Both the position numbers and the translations under genes were made by a program. Shown here one piece after another: positions 6,957-42,776 of a DNA stretch of 64,000 nucleotides. Within the stretch, counting starts at the first letter, position 1, and every line of letters starts with the position of its first letter. Location: assembly GCF_024204665.1 (NCBI RefSeq), contig NZ_CP100355.1, positions 1,531,451 to 1,595,450 of the forward strand, read 5' to 3'. This stretch comes from Natronosalvus rutilus. GTDB lineage: Archaea; Halobacteriota; Halobacteria; Halobacteriales; Natrialbaceae. Below the pieces are notes generated by a model that ran no database searches, was not told the origin of the DNA, and was given only the letters and a program-made list of their open reading frames with translations.

Positions 6957-7826
6957 TCAGGCCTCGAGCGCAGCCTCGAGCACCGCCGTAATCTCGGCTG
7001 CGGCGTCCTCTCCCACCGGCTCGAGCGGTCGGCGTGGGGGCCCGACCTCGAGGCCGCGGTGAGCGAGGGCCGCCTTGATGCCGGGGACGCCGTAGCGGGC
7101 CGTGACCGTCCGGTTGAGTTCCACGATGGCGGCGTTCAGGTCACGAGCGGCGGCGGCGTCGCCGCTTTGATGGATCTCGAAGACCTCGCTCGCCAGGTCG
7201 GGGACGGCGTTCGCGACCGCCAGCACCCCACCGTCGGCGCCGGCGTCGAGCGCGTGGGCGTAGACGCTCCCGTGGCCCACGAGGACCGAAAAGTCGGCAT
7301 CCGCGGTGAACCGGACGAGGCGCTGGATCGACTCGATGCTGCCGCTCGAGTCCTTGATCCCGGCGACGTTCTCGTGGGTCGCGAGCGACTCGACGAGTCG
7401 CGGTGAGAGCGGGTAGTCGGTGAACTTCGGCACGCTGTAGAGGTAGATGGGGATCGGCGATTTGTCCGCCAGGTTGTGGTAGTAGCGCCCGAGCGCGGCG
7501 TCGTCGCTGCCGTAGTACGACGGCGTCACGACGAGGGCGGCGTCGGCACCCGCTGCGGCCGCGCCCTCGGTCGCCTCGAGCGTCGGTTCGTACCCCTCGT
7601 GACCAGTGCCCGCGAGGACGGGTTTCTCGGTCGCGTCGGCCACCGTCTCGACGACCTGTGTCCGTTCGTCGGCCGTCAACAGCGGCGCCTCGCCCGTCGA
7701 CCCACAGGGGACGAAGAAGTCGATGCCCGCGCTCGCGAACCAGTCCACGAGGGCCTCGAGGCGCTCGTGATCGACGCGTCCGTCGTCGGCAATCGGCGTC
7801 ACCAGCGGCACGCCAGTTCCGTGCAT
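6957..7826 (-). CDS. DapA-superfamily aldolase (2-keto-3-deoxy acid aldolase-like)
   Basis: The 289-residue TIM-barrel protein starts at ATG 7826 (MHGTGVPLVTP); a longer in-frame extension to 8351 overlaps another gene and has non-coding composition. It shows the pyruvate-binding GSTGE (42-46), the proton-relay Tyr130 and the Schiff-base Lys158 (GIKDSSGS) of the N-acetylneuraminate lyase/DHDPS class. The position after the YSVP motif where true dihydrodipicolinate synthases have a substrate-carboxylate Arg is KFT here. A role as an aldolase for 2-keto-3-deoxy sugar acids is therefore at least as likely as DapA. Divergent from the AIR-synthase-like gene at 7960. Confidence 0.85.
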   Translation of the reverse strand: MHGTGVPLVTPIADDGRVDHERLEALVDWFASAGIDFFVPCGSTGEAPLLTADERTQVVETVADATEKPVLAGTGHEGYEPTLEATEGAAAAGADAALVVTPSYYGSDDAALGRYYHNLADKSPIPIYLYSVPKFTDYPLSPRLVESLATHENVAGIKDSSGSIESIQRLVRFTADADFSVLVGHGSVYAHALDAGADGGVLAVANAVPDLASEVFEIHQSGDAAAARDLNAAIVELNRTVTARYGVPGIKAALAHRGLEVGPPRRPLEPVGEDAAAEITAVLEAALEA

Positions 7827-7959
7827 GGCAGTTCCTGGGTGATGACGGCTAATAGCTGTGGCCGTTCGAACGCTGCCGATCGTGCCGCGGTCGTCGACGC
7901 AGTCGGGGCTCGAGCGAGCGATCAGCAGGCCTAAGCGCCCGCCTCGAGAACGCTCGCCC

Positions 7960-9006
7960 GTGACCGACCCCTCTCGAGACCCCGCGCTCGGCAAGATCGA
8001 CCGGACGGTGTTCGAGCGACAGATCGCCCCCCGACTCGGCGCCGACCGCAACGACGTCGTGCTCGGGCCAACCCACGGCGTCGACTTCGGCGTGCTCGAC
8101 GTCGGCGGCCGGGCCGTCGTAGTGGCGACCGATCCGGTTTCGATTCTTCCGGATCTAGGTCTCGAGCGCGCCGCCAGGTTCGCCCTGGACGTCGTGCTCA
8201 CGGACGTCGCGGTCAGCGGAATCTCGCCGTCGCACCTCTCGATCTCGTTCACGCTCCCTCCGGAGATGACCGACGAGCAGTTCGCGATCGTCTGGGAGGC
8301 GATCCACGAGGAGTGTGTCGACCTCGGAATCGCAATCGCGGCGGGCCACACCGCCCGTTACGCCGGTATCTCGTACTCGTGGGTCGGCGGCGCGACGGTG
8401 CTCGGCGTCGGCAACCGCGAGGCCGTCGTCCGTCCCGACGGTGCTCGCCCTGGCGACGCGCTCTTGCTCACTACTGGGCCGGCCGTCGAGGCCGTCGCCC
8501 TCCTGAGCTCCCTCTTCGGCGACCAGATCGACGTCTCCGACGCCGTCCTCGAGGACGCTCGAGCCTGCCTCGACGATAGCTTCGCCGTCCGCGACGCGCT
8601 GACCGCGGCGGCAACCGCGCCGGTCCACGCGATGCACGACGTGACCGAAGGCGGCCTCGCGGGCGCGCTCGTCGAGATGTCGGAGGGGTCGGGAACTCGC
8701 TTCGAGATTGATCGCTCGGCGGTCCCGGTCCGGCCGGCCGTTCAGGCGGTCTGTGAAGCCCTCGAGATGGACCCCTGGCGGGCGACCAGCTGTGGCTCGC
8801 TCGTGATCGCGGTCGATCCGGGGGACGTTTCGCCGGTGGTCGAGGCGCTCGAGGCTCGCGGGACTACGGTCGCGGAGATCGGGCGGGTGGAGGCAGTCGA
8901 CGGCCCGTCGGGGACCGACTCCGAGGTGCGCGTCGGTGGCGCCGTGCTCGAGCACCCCGGCGTCGATTCCTCGTGGGCGGCGTTCGAACGCTTCGCCGAG
9001 TACTGA
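7960..9006 (+). CDS. AIR synthase-related (HypE/PurM superfamily) protein, paralogue 1
   Basis: The 348-residue protein starts at GTG 7960; the in-frame extension to 7858 is Arg/Pro-rich and unlike the protein. The AIR synthase fold is shown by THGVDFGVLDVGG with ATDP (about 30-55), GHTARYAG (about 130) and MHDVTEGGLAGALVEM (about 228). The last resembles HypE's MHDPTxGG motif, but the HypE C-terminal cysteine is absent. It is about one half identical by eye to the protein at 9923-10996, so the two are paralogues separated by a lipoprotein gene. The substrate is unknown; an ATP-dependent phosphoryl or dehydration chemistry is expected from the superfamily. Confidence 0.82.
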   Translation: MTDPSRDPALGKIDRTVFERQIAPRLGADRNDVVLGPTHGVDFGVLDVGGRAVVVATDPVSILPDLGLERAARFALDVVLTDVAVSGISPSHLSISFTLPPEMTDEQFAIVWEAIHEECVDLGIAIAAGHTARYAGISYSWVGGATVLGVGNREAVVRPDGARPGDALLLTTGPAVEAVALLSSLFGDQIDVSDAVLEDARACLDDSFAVRDALTAAATAPVHAMHDVTEGGLAGALVEMSEGSGTRFEIDRSAVPVRPAVQAVCEALEMDPWRATSCGSLVIAVDPGDVSPVVEALEARGTTVAEIGRVEAVDGPSGTDSEVRVGGAVLEHPGVDSSWAAFERFAEY

Positions 9007-35131: not shown

Positions 35132-37399
35132 TCAGGCGTGACCCGGATAATCCCGCTCGAATCGGTCCTCGAGGTCGCCGTACTCGAACTGCACGACGAC
35201 GGGACGCCCGTGGGGACAGGCGTAGGGGTTCTCGCAGTCGTCGAGCGCCTCGAGCAGGTCCAGGACGGACCCCTCCGAGAGCGAGGTGTTGCCGGTGATC
35301 GACGGATAGCAGGCCAGGTCGGCGAGGAAGTCGTCGGCCAGCGCGTCGATCGTCTCGGCGCCCGCCTCGCGATCGCCGTCGAGGAACGAGGCGAGGACGT
35401 CCCGGAGCTGGGCCGGCTCGAGGGTCTTCTCGAGGACGGCGGGGACGGTAGTGACGGCGACCGACCGGTCGTCGACTCGGTCGGCGGAAAAGCCCAGGCG
35501 CGCGAGCGCGTCCCGGTAATGCTCGAAGGCTTCGGCCTCGACGGCCGTCAACTCGAGTTCGACGGGCGAGGCGAGCGCCTGGGTCGTCGGATCGTCGGCG
35601 AAGGCTCGCTGGAGACGCTCGTAGTTGACGCGCTCGTCGGCGGCGTGCTGGTCGACCAGGACGAGTCCCTCGGGCGTCTCGCAGACGACGTAGGTCTCCT
35701 TGAGCTGACCGAGTACCCGCAGGGAGGGCAGGGAGTCGTACTCGAGGGCGTCGGTGGCCGTCCCGCCCGCCAGCGTCTGCTGGTCGGTCGACGGGATGAT
35801 CGAGCGCGACGGGTCGCTCGAGGCGGCGTGTCGGGGTCGGTCTCCTGCATCTGTCGCGTCCGTCGCGTCCATCACGTCGCTCGAATCCGCCGTGCTCGCC
35901 GTTCGTCTCGTCGGTTCGGCTGCGCTCGAGGGATCGGGACGGCTCGCCTCCAGGTCGGACGTCGGGGTCGACGGCGACGTTTCTGGTCGACTCGAGGCGT
36001 TCGCTCGTGTCGCGTCCGGAGACTGCCCAGTTTCGGGTGCCTCGTCCGCCCTGGAGTCGTCTGTCTGCATTGCGGACGACTCGCTCGAGTCAGTGTCTCG
36101 ACGGTCGACCGAACGCGAGCCGACGGCGTCACTCGAGACCGATGGGTTCGACGGCCCCGAACTGCTCGAATCGTCCGCCTCGGGTTCGTCAGCCGCCCCC
36201 GCGAGTGTTCCGTCCTCGTACCCGGCGTCCGGTTCGACCGCCGCCTCCTCGGGGGCCGAGCGTCCGCGGGGCGCCCGCGAGCGGAGCAACCCGTGCTCGA
36301 GCAGCGCCGACTCGACGGCCGACTCGACCGCTCGGCGGACGGCGTCGTCGTCGTCGAACCGGACCTCGCGCTTTCGGGGGTGGACGTTCACGTCGACAGC
36401 GTCGCCCGGAACCTCGAGGAAGAGCACGACGAAGGGGTAGCGATCGCCGCCGAGCTGGCCGCCGTAGGCGTTCATGACCCCCTCGCGGATGGCCTCGGAA
36501 GTGACCGCCCGCCCGTTGACGTAGGTCGCGAAGTAGTCCCGGCTGGCCCGGTTCGTCTCCGGGTGCGAGACCGTTCCCGAGACGGCCTCGAGCGGGCCGA
36601 CCGGGAGCTCCTCGCCGTCGGCTTCGACGTCGATCATCGCCCGCGCGACCTCGCGGCCGTAGACGGCGAGAATGGCGGCCTGTAAGTCGTCCTGGCCCGT
36701 CGTGCCGAACACCTCGCGCCCGTCGTGGGTGAGCGAGAGTGCCACGTCTGGGTTGGCGAGGGCGTAGCGGGTGACGATTTGGTTGACGTGGGCGAACTCT
36801 GTTGCGGTGGTCTTGAGGAACTTCCGCCGAGCGGGGGTGTTGTAGAAGAGGTCCTCAACGACGACAGTGGTTCCCTCCGGGCAGCCGGTCGGTTCGACGG
36901 CGACGACGTCGCCGCCCTCGTAGACGAGTTCGGTTCCCGTCGGGGTTTCGTCGCCGGTTCCGTCGGCTCGAGGCCGGGTCCGAATCGTCAGCTTTGACAC
37001 CGACCCGATGGTGTGGAGCGCCTCCCCTCGAAAGCCCAGGCTCTCGACGCCGCTCTCGAGGTCCTCCAGTCCCGTGATCTTGCTCGTCGTGTGCTGGCGG
37101 ACCGCCCGGCGGACGTCCGTCTCGGTCATCCCGCGGCCGTCGTCGCTGACCCGGATGGACTCGGTGCCGCCTTTCTCGATCGTTACCTCGATGCGGGTGG
37201 CGTCGGCGTCGAGGGCGTTCTCGACCAGTTCCTTGACCGCGCTCGCGGGCCGCTCGACGACCTCCCCGGCGGCGATCCGGGCGACGGTGTGCTCGTCGAG
37301 CTGGTGGATGGTCGTCTCGTCCGTTGCTCGCTCGTCCGTTCGGTCGTCCGAGTCGTCGGTTGTGTCGTCGGATGGGGTATCGATTGTGTCGTCAGTCAT
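35132..37399 (-). CDS. mutL: DNA mismatch repair endonuclease MutL
   Basis: The 755-residue protein has an acidic Thr/Asp leader (1-30). The GHKL ATPase domain follows, with VKELVENALDADAT, DDGRGM and GFRGEALHTIGSV; the transducer domain extends to about 360. A long Ser/Thr/Asp linker separates it from the C-terminal dimerisation domain. The nicking motif DQHAADERVNYE (583-594) fits DQHAx2Ex4E, and ACPHGRP near the end completes the metal site. It therefore should nick DNA in a MutS-dependent manner. It starts 3 nt after the upstream aldolase stop. Confidence 0.97.
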   Translation of the reverse strand: MTDDTIDTPSDDTTDDSDDRTDERATDETTIHQLDEHTVARIAAGEVVERPASAVKELVENALDADATRIEVTIEKGGTESIRVSDDGRGMTETDVRRAVRQHTTSKITGLEDLESGVESLGFRGEALHTIGSVSKLTIRTRPRADGTGDETPTGTELVYEGGDVVAVEPTGCPEGTTVVVEDLFYNTPARRKFLKTTATEFAHVNQIVTRYALANPDVALSLTHDGREVFGTTGQDDLQAAILAVYGREVARAMIDVEADGEELPVGPLEAVSGTVSHPETNRASRDYFATYVNGRAVTSEAIREGVMNAYGGQLGGDRYPFVVLFLEVPGDAVDVNVHPRKREVRFDDDDAVRRAVESAVESALLEHGLLRSRAPRGRSAPEEAAVEPDAGYEDGTLAGAADEPEADDSSSSGPSNPSVSSDAVGSRSVDRRDTDSSESSAMQTDDSRADEAPETGQSPDATRANASSRPETSPSTPTSDLEASRPDPSSAAEPTRRTASTADSSDVMDATDATDAGDRPRHAASSDPSRSIIPSTDQQTLAGGTATDALEYDSLPSLRVLGQLKETYVVCETPEGLVLVDQHAADERVNYERLQRAFADDPTTQALASPVELELTAVEAEAFEHYRDALARLGFSADRVDDRSVAVTTVPAVLEKTLEPAQLRDVLASFLDGDREAGAETIDALADDFLADLACYPSITGNTSLSEGSVLDLLEALDDCENPYACPHGRPVVVQFEYGDLEDRFERDYPGHA

Positions 37400-37402
37400 A
37401 GC

Positions 37403-38290
37403 TCAGGCCTCGAGCAGCGCGTCGGTACGGTCGGTGATCGTCTCTCGTCCCGCCTCGGGAACGGTGACGAGCGGCGGACGAACCCCGTCGGACGGGAGCC
37501 ACCCGCGGTGGCCGAGGGCGGCTTTGGTCGCGGGAGCGAATCCGTAGGTTCCACACGCCTCGAACAGTCCCGAAATCGCCGTCTGCAGGGCCTCCCCGCG
37601 CTCGGTTTCGGCGGTCTCGAGCACCTCGGTGTACGCCTCCGGGGCGACGTTCGAGAGCGCGTTCACGCCGCCGTCGGCGCCCATGCGGAGGGAGGGGACG
37701 AGCAGCGTGTCGAATCCCTGGAGACACAGAAATTCCTCGGGCGTCCGGCGTATCGCCGCCAGGAAGTACTCGAAGTCGCCGCTCGAGTCCTTCAGGCCGA
37801 CGACGTTCTCGTGACCGGCGACCGCCTTGAGCGTCTCGAGAGCGATGGGCTGGCCCGTACACGAGGGAATGTTGTAGAGGACGAGTGGGAGCGGCGACTC
37901 GTCGGCCACCGCCTCGAAGAACTGTCGATCACCGGCCGGATCGTTCGCTGTGTGAAAGTACGGCGGAACGACCACCGCGATGTCGGCGCCGACCTCGGCG
38001 GCCGCTTCGGCGTAGTCGACCGTCTGGGCGACGCTCGTCGCGGCGGCGCCAGCGAGCACCGGTACCTCGCCGTTTGCTCGCTCCACTGTGACCTCGACGA
38101 CCCGACGCTGTTCGTCGGGCGAGAGGCTCGCGAACTCGCCGGTCGTCCCGCAGGGAAAGAGCCCGTCAATGCCGCCCTCGAGGAGCGCGTCGATGAGCGA
38201 ACCCAGCGATTCCTCGTCGACCGATCCCGATTCGTCGAACGGCGTCACGATGGGACACGTGACGCCCTCGAGCGCCTGCTGGAAAGTCAT
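37403..38290 (-). CDS. DapA-superfamily aldolase, second copy
   Basis: The 295-residue protein starts at ATG 38290 (MTFQQALEGVTCPIVTPF). It has GTTGE (48-52), the catalytic Tyr139 in YNIPSCTG and Schiff-base Lys167 (GLKDSSGD). In true dihydrodipicolinate synthases the residue at 144 is the Arg that binds the substrate carboxylate; here it is Cys. A 2-keto-3-deoxy acid or related aldolase is likelier than lysine synthesis. It is divergent from an NRAMP-like transporter and 3 nt before mutL on the same strand. Confidence 0.85.
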   Translation of the reverse strand: MTFQQALEGVTCPIVTPFDESGSVDEESLGSLIDALLEGGIDGLFPCGTTGEFASLSPDEQRRVVEVTVERANGEVPVLAGAAATSVAQTVDYAEAAAEVGADIAVVVPPYFHTANDPAGDRQFFEAVADESPLPLVLYNIPSCTGQPIALETLKAVAGHENVVGLKDSSGDFEYFLAAIRRTPEEFLCLQGFDTLLVPSLRMGADGGVNALSNVAPEAYTEVLETAETERGEALQTAISGLFEACGTYGFAPATKAALGHRGWLPSDGVRPPLVTVPEAGRETITDRTDALLEA

Positions 38291-38472
38291 GTATGGTTGT
38301 TTCTGAGCGGATGCAAAAGGGTATCGACGGGAATTCGACTGGGTTCGTGATCCTCGAAACAGGTACGTCGATCGATGGTCCCGTGGGATGGTTCTGTAGA
38401 ACGGTGATTCAACCTTTTTCAGCGTCTCCTTCGGAATCGTTCTCAGTGATGTCTGTTCGAATCGCCAGTATC

Positions 38473-38480
38473 TATTTATT
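38473..38480 (+). promoter_or_regulatory. TATA box of the NRAMP-like gene
   Basis: TATTTATT is centred about 26 nt before ATG 38502, the usual leaderless spacing. The 211-nt divergent region must also hold the promoter of the aldolase on the other strand. Confidence 0.5.
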
Positions 38481-38501
38481 TCCTGAATGTGGTTTTGCGG
38501 T

Positions 38502-39740
38502 ATGGTTGCAACCAACACAGAACCTGCATCGAGTCGATCTCTCTGGAATCGGATCACGGCCATCGGTCCCGCGCTCATCCTGGCGGCCGTCGTCGTCGGA
38601 CCGGGCAGTATCGCGCTGAGTACGATCGCCGGGAGCCTCTACGGCTACCAGCTACTGTGGGTGCCGATAACTGCGACGGTATTCATGATCACGTACACGT
38701 GGATGGCCGCACGGATCGGCCTCGCCACCGGGGAAACGCTCCTCGAGACCGCCCGAGAGAAGTACGGGAATGGCCTCGCGACGGTTGGCGGTGTCTTCGG
38801 CTTCCTCGCTATTCTCGCGTTTCAAGCCGGGAACAACGCGGGCATCGGATTCGCGACGAACGCGTTAGTCGGCTACGACGTCAGGCTCTGGGCCGCCGTG
38901 TTCTCCCTCGCGGCGATCGGTTTCATCTGGTTGCCGAACCTGTACGACAAGATCGAACTCCTCATCAAACTCGTCGTCGGGATCATGCTCGTCGCGTTCG
39001 TCGGGACGCTCGCCATCGTCGGGTTCGACGTTCCCGCTGCTGCTGGCGGTCTGATCCCGTCGGTCCCGAACGTCGACGCGCTCTTCCTCGCGCTCGGAAT
39101 GGCGGCAACGACGTTCTCGATCGCTGCCGCGGCCTACCAGACGTATCTCGTCCGGGAGAAAGAGTGGGGCCCGGACCAGCTCGCCGAGAAGGGGTCGGAT
39201 AGCATTCTCGGTATCGCCGTCCTCGGACTCATCGTGACGGTCATTATGCTGACGAGCGCGAGCGTTATTCACGGCGAGACCGATCCAGTCTTCGATGCCG
39301 TCGGCATGGCCTCCCAGCTCGAGCCCGTCGCCGGTTCGGGCGCGTTCTACCTCTTTACGCTCGGCTTCTTCTTCGCCGCGCTCTCCTCGCTGGTCGTCAA
39401 CGCAATCCTCGGGGCGACGCTTCTCGCCGACGGGTTCGGTCAGGATCCGACGATGGACGGCCGACCCGTCAAGACGTGGGCGACTCTTGCCGTTCTCTTC
39501 GGCCTCGCCGTCGTGATCGTGTACCAGGAAGACCCGATCCAACTCCTTCGGATCGCGCAGGCGGTTGCCGTGATCGCGTTCCCGATCCTCGGCTTCCTGA
39601 TTCTCGGCATCGCGAACGACGAGGTGTTTATGGGCCCGTACACAAACGGGTTGATCGTCAACGTCCTCGGGATCGTCGGCTACCTCGCGATCATCGGTAT
39701 CGTCCTCAACTACCTGCGCGAAGTGATCACGTTCCTCTAA
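38502..39740 (+). CDS. NRAMP-fold transporter lacking metal-binding motifs
   Basis: The 412-residue protein starts at ATG 38502 (MVATNTEPASSRSLW) and has about 11 helices. The first helix reads VVVGPGSIALSTIAG where metal carriers have DPGN, so the metal-ligand Asp and Asn are absent. In helix 6, AAAAYQTYLVREKEWG takes the place of the MPHNLYLHS segment, losing the Met ligand. The fold family is APC-type NRAMP (COG1914). The natural substrate is probably not Mn/Fe and may be an organic compound handled by the divergent aldolase. This last step is inference. Confidence 0.85.
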   Translation: MVATNTEPASSRSLWNRITAIGPALILAAVVVGPGSIALSTIAGSLYGYQLLWVPITATVFMITYTWMAARIGLATGETLLETAREKYGNGLATVGGVFGFLAILAFQAGNNAGIGFATNALVGYDVRLWAAVFSLAAIGFIWLPNLYDKIELLIKLVVGIMLVAFVGTLAIVGFDVPAAAGGLIPSVPNVDALFLALGMAATTFSIAAAAYQTYLVREKEWGPDQLAEKGSDSILGIAVLGLIVTVIMLTSASVIHGETDPVFDAVGMASQLEPVAGSGAFYLFTLGFFFAALSSLVVNAILGATLLADGFGQDPTMDGRPVKTWATLAVLFGLAVVIVYQEDPIQLLRIAQAVAVIAFPILGFLILGIANDEVFMGPYTNGLIVNVLGIVGYLAIIGIVLNYLREVITFL

Positions 39741-39842
39741 CCCACTGTCGACCAGGATCGATCACTCACGACCTGTTTTCACCCGCGAACGGGTTGCCTC
39801 GAACTGTCAGTGACCGCTATCGTTCACGTTCCGTACGAATGC

Positions 39843-39850
39843 TTGTATAG
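39843..39850 (+). promoter_or_regulatory. TATA box of the HTH/metal-ribbon regulator
   Basis: TTGTATAG is centred about 28 nt before ATG 39875 and decides this start over GTG 39851, which would overlap the promoter. Confidence 0.5.
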
Positions 39851-39874
39851 GTGGTGACCACCAACGATACCGCC

Positions 39875-40798
39875 ATGAATTCAACGGACGAAGACGGCCA
39901 CATCGATCCGGTGGTCAGTGACGCCATTGACGCGCTCGGAAACGATCACCGCCTCGAGATCCTGTTCGCGCTGGCCGACCGCGAGTGGGAGGTACAGGAG
40001 AACGGGCACGTCATGTCGTTTACCGACCTGTACGACGCGGTCGACGTCGACAGCACGTCCCAGTTCTCCTACCACCTCAAGCACCTCGTCGGGCAGTTCC
40101 TCGAGGAGACACCCGACGGGTATCGGCTAACGTACACCGGCGAAAAGATCGTTCGAACCATCAGATCGGGCCTCTACGAGAGCACGCCGACGTTCGAGGC
40201 CGTCGACGTCGCCGGCCTGTGTCCGTTCTGTCGCAAGTCTACACTCGTCGCGGATTCGAGCGACGAACGTTTCGTCGTCCGGTGTACGGCGTGTGACTCG
40301 ACGCTCTTGGCCGATGCCTTTCCGCGCAGTCAGGCGGCACACCGATCGCCGTCCGAAATCGCCGAGAGTTTCGGTTACCGCATCTGGAGCGCGGCCGTCG
40401 CGGTGCAGGGTGGCGTCTGTCCGGAGTGTTACGCCCCTGCCGACGCCGCTGTGGACTCACACGACCGTGACGGACTGGTGTTTCACACGGTCGTGAGCAC
40501 CTGTGACGAGTGTCGAATGGTGTACAATATTCCGGTGGAAGTGCTGGTTGCGCTCCACCCCGCGGCCATCGAGTTCCTCTGGCGACAGAGGATTTCGATC
40601 CCCGAAACGCCGCTCTGGGAACTATTCGGGTACTTCACCGGGGACGACTGGACGACCGACGTTCGTTCCATCTCCCCGCTCGAGGCCCGATTCGAACTCT
40701 CGTGTGGTGACGAGACGCTCGTCCTCGAGATGGGCGACGACCTCGAGGTTACGCCAGTTGCAGAACCCCCGGAGATTAGTCCGGAATCGAACAAATAA
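39875..40798 (+). CDS. ArsR-like HTH regulator with zinc-ribbon domain (DUF7347/DUF7351-like)
   Basis: The 307-residue protein starts at ATG 39875 (MNSTDEDGHID). A winged helix (about 10-90) includes LGNDHRLEILFAL and SQFSYHLKHLVGQFLEETPDGYRLTYTGEKIVRTI. Two cysteine clusters follow: CPFC with CTAC (about 116-137), and CPEC with CDEC (about 180-215), forming two zinc ribbons. The C-terminal part is beta-rich. It is located next to the NRAMP-like transporter on the same strand and might regulate it. The ligand and targets are unknown. Confidence 0.82.
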   Translation: MNSTDEDGHIDPVVSDAIDALGNDHRLEILFALADREWEVQENGHVMSFTDLYDAVDVDSTSQFSYHLKHLVGQFLEETPDGYRLTYTGEKIVRTIRSGLYESTPTFEAVDVAGLCPFCRKSTLVADSSDERFVVRCTACDSTLLADAFPRSQAAHRSPSEIAESFGYRIWSAAVAVQGGVCPECYAPADAAVDSHDRDGLVFHTVVSTCDECRMVYNIPVEVLVALHPAAIEFLWRQRISIPETPLWELFGYFTGDDWTTDVRSISPLEARFELSCGDETLVLEMGDDLEVTPVAEPPEISPESNK

Positions 40799-40867
40799 GC
40801 AAAAATTGATTCGAACATGAGGATCGAAAATGCGCCACAACGTTGGTGAAACCTGCGCTCACGCTTG

Positions 40868-40883
40868 CTCAAACGTATTTGAG
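40868..40883. other. Short hairpin 3' of the regulator gene
   Basis: CTCAAA and TTTGAG form a 6-bp stem with CGTA as loop, 70 nt after the regulator stop and before the ABC promoter. It may act in transcript end formation or as part of a regulatory site. Confidence 0.3.
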
Positions 40884-40890
40884 TAGCATC

Positions 40891-40915
40891 GTTGTCAATA
40901 TATAAGAAATACAAC
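40891..40915 (+). promoter_or_regulatory. ABC exporter promoter with flanking inverted repeat
   Basis: ATATATAA at about 40898-40905 is a good TATA box, flanked by GTTGT (40891-40895) and ACAAC (40911-40915). A start near 40928 would give an 80-nt leader ending in the Shine-Dalgarno GGAGGT at 40995-41000, 7 nt before GTG 41008. The inverted repeat could be an operator. Confidence 0.45.
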
Positions 40916-41007
40916 AATACTTTTCACGTCTCGAGCGAAGGCGTACGTGATGAGCGCTATTACATGCGATCGTGACTGGCGACTGCCGTTCGGCGGAGGT
41001 CGCTAGC

Positions 41008-41928
41008 GTGGCCGCGATCGAACTCGACGGACTGACGAAACGCTTCGGCGACGTCCTAGCCGTCGACGACTTCGATCTGACAATCGAGGAGGGCGAAATC
41101 TTCGGCTTCCTGGGCCCGAACGGAGCCGGCAAGTCGACGACCATCGACATCCTGCTCGACTTCACGCGACCAACCGGCGGCACCGCGACGGTACTCGGTC
41201 ACGACGCACAGGACGAGAGTCTCGCCGTCCGCCAGCGGACCGGCGTCTTGCCCGACGGCTACCACGTCTACGACCGCCTGACGGGCCGCCGGCATCTCGA
41301 TTTCGTCGTCGAGTTGAAGGCGGTCGACGAAGACGTCGACGCCCTGCTCGAGCGCGTGGGGATCGCCGAGGCGGCCGACCGCAAGGCGGGCGGCTACTCG
41401 AAGGGAATGCGCCAGCGACTCGTGCTCGCCATGGCGCTCGTCGGCGATCCCGATCTGTTGATCCTCGACGAACCCTCCACCGGCCTCGACCCCAACGGTG
41501 CCCGCGAAATGCGCGAGATCATCCGGCGGGAGAACGAGCGCGGGACGACGATCTTCTTCTCGAGTCACATCATGGAGCAGGTCGAAGCGATCTGCGACCG
41601 CGTCGCTATCATCAACCGCGGCCGACTGGTCGCGGTCGACACCGTGGAGGGGTTGCGCGACGCGACCGAAACGGCGACGACGCTGTCGATTTCGGTCTCG
41701 GGCGTCGACGACGCGCTTCTCGAGACCGTCGCTGGTCTCGAGGGCGTCACCGACGTCGCGCTCGAGGAGGGCCGGCTCCGGGTGATCCTGTCCGGCGGGT
41801 CGAAGTTTGACGTGCTGAACACGCTCGACGACGGCGGCGCAGACGTCGGGGACTTCTCCGTCGACGAGTCCTCGCTCGAGGATCTGTTCGTGCGGTACAC
41901 GACCGAGGATCAGGAGGTGCGAACATGA
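41008..41928 (+). CDS. ABC transporter ATP-binding protein
   Basis: The 306-residue ATPase starts at GTG 41008, 7 nt after GGAGGT; an ORF from 40972 lacks support. Walker A GPNGAGKSTT (about 38-47), signature YSKGMRQRL (about 130), Walker B LLILDEPSTGLDPNG and the H-loop SSHIMEQV are complete. A C-terminal region (about 215-306) resembles the accessory part of drug- or copper-type exporters (NosF-like). It overlaps the permease by 4 nt (ATGA) and the pair forms an ABC-2 exporter. Confidence 0.95.
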   Translation: MAAIELDGLTKRFGDVLAVDDFDLTIEEGEIFGFLGPNGAGKSTTIDILLDFTRPTGGTATVLGHDAQDESLAVRQRTGVLPDGYHVYDRLTGRRHLDFVVELKAVDEDVDALLERVGIAEAADRKAGGYSKGMRQRLVLAMALVGDPDLLILDEPSTGLDPNGAREMREIIRRENERGTTIFFSSHIMEQVEAICDRVAIINRGRLVAVDTVEGLRDATETATTLSISVSGVDDALLETVAGLEGVTDVALEEGRLRVILSGGSKFDVLNTLDDGGADVGDFSVDESSLEDLFVRYTTEDQEVRT

Positions 41929-42776
41929 CTGCGAGGTGGGCCGCCGTCGCCAGGAAGGACTTCCAGGACGCCGTGCAGTCGCGGGCGCTGTGGGCCCTGC
42001 TCGCCGCGTTCGTGCTGTTCTCGCTGCTGACGACGTACGCCTACGTCGAACTCCCCGAGGCGTTCGGGGCGGCCGGCGACGTCTCGTTCGGCGGGCTGGT
42101 GTTCTTCCTGGCGGGGATCACCAGCCTGTTCGTCGCGCTGGCGGCGATCGTCGTCTGTTACAAGTCCGTCGCCGGGGAGCGCGAACTGGGCAGTATCAAG
42201 CTCCTGCTCGCGCTTCCTGTCACCCGGCGAGACGTGTTCCTCGGCAAGGTGATCGGCCGGGCCGCCGTAATCGCGGCCACGCTCGGCGTCGGATTGCTCA
42301 TCGGACTCGGATTCGGCTCCCTGCTGCTCGGAACGGTCGAGATCGTTCCGCTGGTGACGTTCGTGCTGGCCGCAGTGGTCTTCGCCGGCGTCTACGCGGC
42401 GATCGTCGTCGGCCTCTCGGCGACCACGTCGTCGACGTCGCGGGCGACGACGCTCGCGCTCGGCTTCTTCGTCGTGTTCGAACTGGCCTGGGACGTGGTG
42501 CCGCTGGCGCTCGTCTACGTCGCGAACGGCTTCTCGCTCCCCCAGCAGATGCCCGACTGGATGTTCATTGCGACCCAGATACCGCCCTCTGCGGCGTACT
42601 TCTCGGCGCTCGTCGCGCTGCTGCCGGGGGTCGCCGACGAGGCCAACGCCCAGACCCAGGCCGCCGGCTTCGATGCGGCCTACGCGACGCCGACGGTCGG
42701 GTTCGTCGTGCTCGCGTTCTGGGTAGTCGTGCCGCTGGCGATCGGTTACTATCGATTCGACGGAACGGACCTCTGA
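41925..42776 (+). CDS. ABC-2 type permease (NosY-like)
   Basis: The 283-residue membrane protein has about six helices and the ABC-2 hallmark AARWAAVARKDFQDAVQSRALWALL at the N-terminus. The conserved YKSVAGERELGSIKLLLALPVTRRDVFLGK (about 80-110) faces the cytoplasm and contacts the ATPase. The C-terminal region includes a long extracytoplasmic loop (residues about 190-245). It probably exports a hydrophobic compound or assists metal-centre maturation. The start overlaps the ATPase stop (ATGA). Confidence 0.92.
   Translation: MTARWAAVARKDFQDAVQSRALWALLAAFVLFSLLTTYAYVELPEAFGAAGDVSFGGLVFFLAGITSLFVALAAIVVCYKSVAGERELGSIKLLLALPVTRRDVFLGKVIGRAAVIAATLGVGLLIGLGFGSLLLGTVEIVPLVTFVLAAVVFAGVYAAIVVGLSATTSSTSRATTLALGFFVVFELAWDVVPLALVYVANGFSLPQQMPDWMFIATQIPPSAAYFSALVALLPGVADEANAQTQAAGFDAAYATPTVGFVVLAFWVVVPLAIGYYRFDGTDL

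Follow-up and report, generated by a model that had tools for sequence, protein, structure and literature searches.

The locus and its genes

We analysed positions 37403-40798 of a 64,000-nucleotide stretch of Natronosalvus rutilus DNA (contig NZ_CP100355.1, positions 1,531,451 to 1,595,450; hereafter the window), where a gene for an Nramp-related carrier (P0002) stands divergent from a gene for a DHDPS-family aldolase or lyase (P0001) and ahead of a regulator gene (P0003). The source genome (G000) is haloarchaeal and comprises 4.31 Mb on four contigs. All three genes are intact and have conserved homologues, and none is a chance open reading frame. The original prediction, which had joined them into one uptake and cleavage system, gave their coordinates, the divergence of the aldolase and the shared strand of regulator and transporter correctly. 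The features are:

37403-38290, minus strand: P0001, DHDPS-family class I aldolase/lyase, 295 amino acids (Pfam DHDPS, motifs, model)
38291-38330, no strand: aldolase 5' flank, 40 bp, kept in the window and in the genomes G237 and G297 (one mismatch)
38331-38486, no strand: upstream/intergenic part of the NRAMP cassette, conserved with G237
38487-39740, plus strand: P0002, Nramp-related carrier, 417 amino acids (Pfam Nramp, motifs, model, fold match)
39851-40798, plus strand: P0003, regulator with a helix-turn-helix (HTH) and a CxxC zinc-ribbon-like domain (Pfam DUF7347 and DUF7351), judged to lie outside the uptake/cleavage pair
40972-42776, plus strand: ABC-2 type exporter, the conserved partner of P0003 (ATPase 40972-41928, permease 41925-42776)
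35132-37399, minus strand: mutL, the conserved neighbour of the aldolase in most Natrialbaceae loci read

The flanking genes are mutL on the aldolase side and, beyond the regulator, the ABC-2 exporter genes and mutS. The likeliest start of P0001 is at 38290; a listed frame of 391 residues is a mechanical extension of it. P0002 has a second in-frame ATG at 38502. The stretch between aldolase and carrier has 48% GC overall, and a search of it for a paired operator turned up only weak short repeats.

A carrier of the NRAMP fold without metal-ligand motifs

P0002 is the sole Nramp protein of the source genome and matched the full-length Pfam Nramp profile (PF01566; 4.6e-63, residues 46-388). Its AlphaFold model (predicted local distance difference test score, pLDDT, 88; predicted template-modelling score, pTM, 0.87) has the LeuT/NRAMP fold, with helix breaks at residues 37-38 in transmembrane helix 1 (TM1) and 210-211 in TM6. 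The best fold match was DraNramp (6d91; Z 50.7, 390 residues aligned, root-mean-square deviation 2.3 A), above other NRAMPs, a model of YcsG (Z 37.1) and then AdiC, AgcS and ApcT (Z 27-31); three plasmid-derived rows were left out of the fold job. Such a list, with metal NRAMPs first and amino-acid carriers of the APC type below, leaves the substrate unrevealed.

In profile alignments to solved structures, G38-P-G-S41 lines up with DPGN in DraNramp, and T208-T-F-S211-I-A213 with A-T-V-M-P-H of the same protein, so that the TM6 site has neither Met nor His. Asn116 takes the position of the TM3 Glu, and no Arg in the alignment matches the TM9 Arg pair of DraNramp. The site therefore reads GxxS-TxxS against the canonical DxxN-AxxM, with no acid at TM1 or TM3. 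These residues are widely kept: among 33 aligned relatives, archaeal and bacterial, G38, R76, N116, T208 and Q358 are invariant, F210 and S211 occur in 30, and position 41 is Ser, Thr, Asn or Ala. The original prediction of an NRAMP-fold transporter with GPGS in helix 1, no MPH in helix 6 and no metal ligands was borne out on each point, every known ligand motif being lost.

Site types described so far are DxxN-A/CxxM for transition metals, DxxN-AxxT for NRAT and DxxG-TxxA/T for NRMT, and EleNRMT retains Asp55 and Glu133 (PMC8806188). P0002 belongs to Pfam Nramp and to the NRAMP fold. It lacks the TM1 DPGN, the TM6 A/CxxM with MPH, the TM3 Glu and the TM3/TM9 proton-path residues of canonical SLC11/MntH proteins, and also the NRMT signature with its TM1 Asp. 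By its motifs it is one of the Nramp-related ("G-motif") proteins, which are without metal-binding and proton-path motifs. Apart from the NRMT-like group and the one that contains Bacillus subtilis MntG/YcsG, the Nramp-related groups are described as uncharacterised (PMC12873925), and generative models of NRAMP specificity take them as likely metal transporters (PMC13060092).

Recurrent pairing with DHDPS-family genes

We searched 392 genomes of the order, 68 of the phylum of the Hydrogenedentota locus, 247 of the class Actinomycetes and a plasmid collection, and scored the DHDPS genes in the fetched carrier neighbourhoods with an iterated profile; Alphaproteobacteria are represented by one locus, on a Neorhizobium plasmid. 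A DHDPS gene was directly adjacent to the carrier gene in all four Actinomycetes/Neorhizobium loci (with a LacI-type regulator nearby), in both haloarchaea of genus g14 (3 bp gap), beside a 55%-identical Hydrogenedentota homologue, in eight Hydrogenedentota loci of a 38%-identical type (same strand, gap 12-211 bp, often with an SDR-type oxidoreductase upstream) and in both loci of the window genus. Outside that genus the adjacent partner lies on the same strand as the NRAMP gene, often 3-17 bp away. In one further genome (G077) the two are 2.3 kb apart. None of 11 hydantoinase-linked NRAMP loci had a DHDPS neighbour, nor did the divergent FQFSN-type branch of Hydrogenedentota or the other haloarchaeal orthologues of 60-80% identity.

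With 17-30% identity to P0001, the adjacent partners represent several DHDPS subfamilies, which differ in their active-site loops and keep the Lys. They are not orthologous to one another across lineages, and those of Hydrogenedentota match Pfam DHDPS only distantly, most of them barely exceeding the cut-off. With two to seven DHDPS genes per genome, a given locus would have such a neighbour by chance with a probability of about 0.1-0.5%; adjacency in four or more of twelve lineages would then have P ~3e-7 at p=0.005, a rough figure for lineage counts that we chose ourselves. The NRAMP-DHDPS pairing is real at the family level.

Five Hydrogenedentota operons (L103, L107, L109, L115, L045) have an SDR/epimerase-like gene (a weak Pfam Epimerase match) ahead of the DHDPS gene, and homologues of this gene (57-72%) occur in the haloarchaeal carrier clusters L038, L050 and L062.

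Catabolic context of the close orthologues

Catabolic clusters, often on megaplasmids, surround the carrier gene in Natronococcus, Natrialba, Natrononativus, Halomontanus, Haladaptatus, Halalkaliarchaeum and other haloarchaea. Genes of the Gfo/Idh family occur in 15 of the 16 orthologous loci that have no DHDPS gene (the contig of an Actinomycetes-labelled metagenome-assembled genome included), many of which also hold genes for FAH-family hydrolases, sugar isomerases, sulfatases or IclR regulators; LLM oxidoreductases are among the neighbours as well. One locus has heparinase and arabinofuranosidase genes. Most close haloarchaeal orthologues are placed in clusters for the catabolism of sugars and sulfated glycans, a context suggestive of sugars, or of sugar acids, derived from glycans that are sulfated or acidic. 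In known pathways 2-keto-3-deoxy acids are substrates of FAH-family and DHDPS-family enzymes alike, so one substrate class is plausible for both contexts.

On the Actinomycetes-labelled contig (L043:8013-9251) the carrier is 65% identical to P0002 and stands beside a GH109/Gfo-Idh gene and G6PD/OpcA genes; this is likely a transfer between archaea and bacteria, or else a mixed bin.

A resident aldolase and a carrier cassette

P0001 matched Pfam DHDPS at 1.5e-65 and is modelled as a DHDPS TIM barrel (pLDDT 94), with Z ~41 to DHDPS structures. It has the class I set of a CGTTGEF loop, Tyr139 and the Schiff-base Lys167, and its fold and catalytic residues place it in the DHDPS superfamily. Class I DHDPS chemistry requires no metal. 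At the position of the substrate Arg of DapA (Arg138) it has Cys144, as had been noticed earlier, and Cys stands there in nearly all orthologues read. We rule out P0001 as DapA on this residue, on its score for the dapA equivalog (195.8 bits against a cut-off of 206.15) and on the presence of a separate true DapA at C1:1070593 (score 340), one of six DHDPS-family genes in the source genome, P0001 among them. DHDPS, NAL and HOGA structures all matched its fold at Z 39.6-41.9, which does not separate the substrate classes; the natural reading is that P0001 cleaves or dehydrates some 2-oxo acid. Another DHDPS-family gene of the window, at 6957-8351 (match C1:1538422-1539270; CGSTGEA, YSVPKFTD, GIKDSSGS), is likewise not DapA-like at the Arg position.

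Orthologues of P0001 (56-95% identity) occur in most of the Natrialbaceae listed, generally without the carrier, and adjoin mutL in most loci read; the aldolase has long been settled between mutL and mutS in this family. Homology to G297, a genome of the same genus, stops at 38330, the left junction of the NRAMP cassette and 40 bp upstream of the aldolase. Because these 40 bp are kept and the similarity ends there, the carrier is best read as a cassette of ~1.5 kb that was either inserted at this point or cleanly lost from G297. The cassette was found in two of the congeners searched. The earlier idea of an uptake-cleavage link is a sound one, given a transporter without metal ligands and a pairing that recurs across phyla with several unrelated DHDPS subfamilies. 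The exact pair of orthologous aldolase and orthologous NRAMP was seen in only two congeners (92% aldolase and 97% carrier identity). On a 60-row tree, DHDPS adjacency needs seven changes; the clade that contains the window pair is supported, and its remaining members have no DHDPS neighbour; the link in the window is therefore an event separate from the other pairings.

Two carrier orthologues are split into two reading frames or interrupted by an in-frame TGA (L066:9412-10622 in G156 and L065:9604-10491 in G013), through decay in the lineage or faulty assemblies.

Proposed function and alternatives

We propose that P0002 takes up a sugar acid or a 2-oxo acid and that P0001 cleaves the derived 2-oxo acid, and we give this a probability of roughly 55%. 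P0002 would be a secondary carrier whose central site is formed between the unwound segments of helices 1 and 6. In place of a metal ion, hydrogen bonds from Ser41, Thr208, Thr209, Ser211 and Asn116 would hold a small organic anion there, with a sugar acid or a 2-oxo acid as the likeliest candidates, and the acid would be carried into the cell. A class I DHDPS-family enzyme may then cleave or dehydrate the resulting 2-oxo acid: P0001 here, a member of another DHDPS subfamily elsewhere. In most close orthologues other sugar-acid enzymes, of the FAH and Gfo/Idh families, would take that role. The carrier would have arrived as a cassette, 40 bp upstream of and divergent from the long-resident aldolase. 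We infer transport of an organic acid, for which PxpT is the genetic precedent (PMC13274462), together with its direction, its coupling, the substrate and the action of P0001 on it.

Several observations weigh against this proposal. Only two species showed the window pair, aldolases of this kind are common where there is no carrier, and close haloarchaeal orthologues of the carrier have no DHDPS gene within ~10 kb. The fold matches of P0001 do not distinguish DapA, NAL and HOG aldolase. Organic-acid transport by proteins of the TFS type is a prediction, and since a rise in cellular Mn has been reported for YcsG (PMC10448178), lack of the canonical ligands need not keep a G-motif protein from moving metal.

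Much of this would also fit an importer of organic or sugar acids, like its plasmid-borne orthologues, that came to lie beside the aldolase by an accident of insertion, P0001 being a core enzyme with an unrelated role. The wide occurrence of P0001 orthologues, mostly beside mutL and without the carrier, the clean junction of the cassette and the close carrier orthologues without DHDPS neighbours all suit such an accident. A random landing beside one of six DHDPS genes has, however, a chance of only ~0.3%, it would re-create a pairing typical of the wider family, and the pair has been kept in two species at the identities given above. We regard this as possible and rather doubtful.

We consider it improbable that P0002 takes up Mn or Mg through a modified site, its linked enzymes being incidental or metal-requiring. 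It is of the Nramp family by sequence and fold and the only such protein in the genome, EleNRMT moves Mg through a changed site (PMC8806188), and YcsG/MntG has been reported as an Mn importer (PMC10448178). Against this, P0002 has no acidic residue at TM1 or TM3, unlike the canonical, NRMT and NRAT motifs (PMC8806188), and its neighbours are catabolic and not metal-homeostasis genes. DHDPS aldolases, moreover, are metal-independent.

A conserved system that includes the regulator, as first proposed for 37403-40798, has the contiguity of the three genes in its favour and can be dismissed as very improbable on the gene orders of related genomes. These are mutL-aldolase-regulator-ABC-kinase-mutS without the carrier in G297, mutL-aldolase-carrier-mutS without the regulator in G237, and mutL-regulator-ABC-mutS with neither aldolase nor carrier in G100 and G300. 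P0003 and the ABC-2 exporter form a conserved block between mutL and mutS in G297, G300 and G100. Since the regulator stays with the ABC genes while aldolase and carrier vary among congeners, it belongs with the exporter and not with the pair, and the aldolase is widespread without the carrier; the three-gene claim is withdrawn. P0003 itself matched DUF7347 (HTH-like, 2e-24) and DUF7351 (3e-43); CxxC pairs lie in the C-terminal domain, and an ArsR-type HTH match was weak and below the cut-off. The block it forms with the exporter (39851-42776) is possibly a regulator-controlled efflux system.

More broadly, we see an even chance that the subgroup with GPGS/N in helix 1, T-T/N-F-S in helix 6 and the helix-3 Asn consists of sugar-acid or 2-oxo-acid carriers that, in bacteria and archaea alike, repeatedly became linked to various enzymes of the DHDPS superfamily. 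On that view, the transport of metals would be a specialisation within a wider family of organic-solute carriers. Databases name these proteins "Nramp family divalent metal transporter". If the proposal is right, many sugar-acid clusters of haloarchaea and bacteria would have to be re-annotated, the cargo of Nramp-related proteins and an origin of metal transport from organic-solute carriers become directly testable, and the DHDPS-family partner offers a clue to the carrier's substrate.

Comparison with known systems

The suggestion of a new system stands in part. NRAMPs without metal motifs are already known as a class (PMC12873925), and so is the idea that one group of them moves an organic acid. 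Neither the TFS subgroup nor its recurrent pairing with enzymes of the DHDPS superfamily turned up in the literature searched: for NRAMP with DHDPS the sole result was an unrelated paper on an iron stimulon, for haloarchaeal sugar clusters with NRAMP nothing on the pairing appeared, and a paper on haloarchaeal glycosaminoglycans leaves Nramp unmentioned.

EleNRMT and canonical MntH/DMT1 share the fold (Z 39-51) and the Pfam Nramp family with P0002. They keep the TM1 Asp and the TM3 Glu, and the canonical proteins also MPH, whereas P0002 has none of these (PMC8806188). P0001 resembles the DapA, NAL, HOGA and KDG/KDGal aldolases in its TIM-barrel fold, Tyr139, Lys167 and GTTGE loop, and differs from DapA in Cys144 and in its score below the equivalog cut-off.

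A second Nramp-related group of haloarchaea, with GPGT in TM1, was found at L052:8028-12898, L053:7998-12826 and nine further loci (L134-L142). These hydantoinase-linked paralogues share with P0002 the GPG of TM1, Asn116 and Arg76; they are only ~30% identical to it, read TTVVGYN..LH in TM6 and are the group that lacks DHDPS neighbours. HyuA/HyuB hydantoinase/oxoprolinase genes directly follow the NRAMP gene in both annotated loci (L052, L053), and a shared large open reading frame lies close to it in 10 of the 11. This group, database-labelled as divalent metal transporters, likely carries 5-oxoproline or hydantoin.

A close parallel is PxpT/YcsG (PxpG), an NRAMP-family group with genetic evidence for 5-oxoproline uptake: PxpT of Corynebacterium glutamicum and YcsG are required for growth on 5-oxoproline (PMC13274462). 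It resembles P0002 in its NRAMP fold and catabolic operon context, and has evidence for an organic-acid substrate. The YcsG model is 15% identical to P0002 over the structural alignment, and sequence tools aligned no YcsG sequence with it. The genes adjoining P0002 are not pxpABC, and its orthologous loci likewise carry other genes. The P0002 subgroup is set apart from the YcsG type by its TTFS motif in helix 6 and by its partners: YcsG-type carriers pair with 5-oxoprolinase genes, the P0002 subgroup with DHDPS-family or sugar-acid enzymes.

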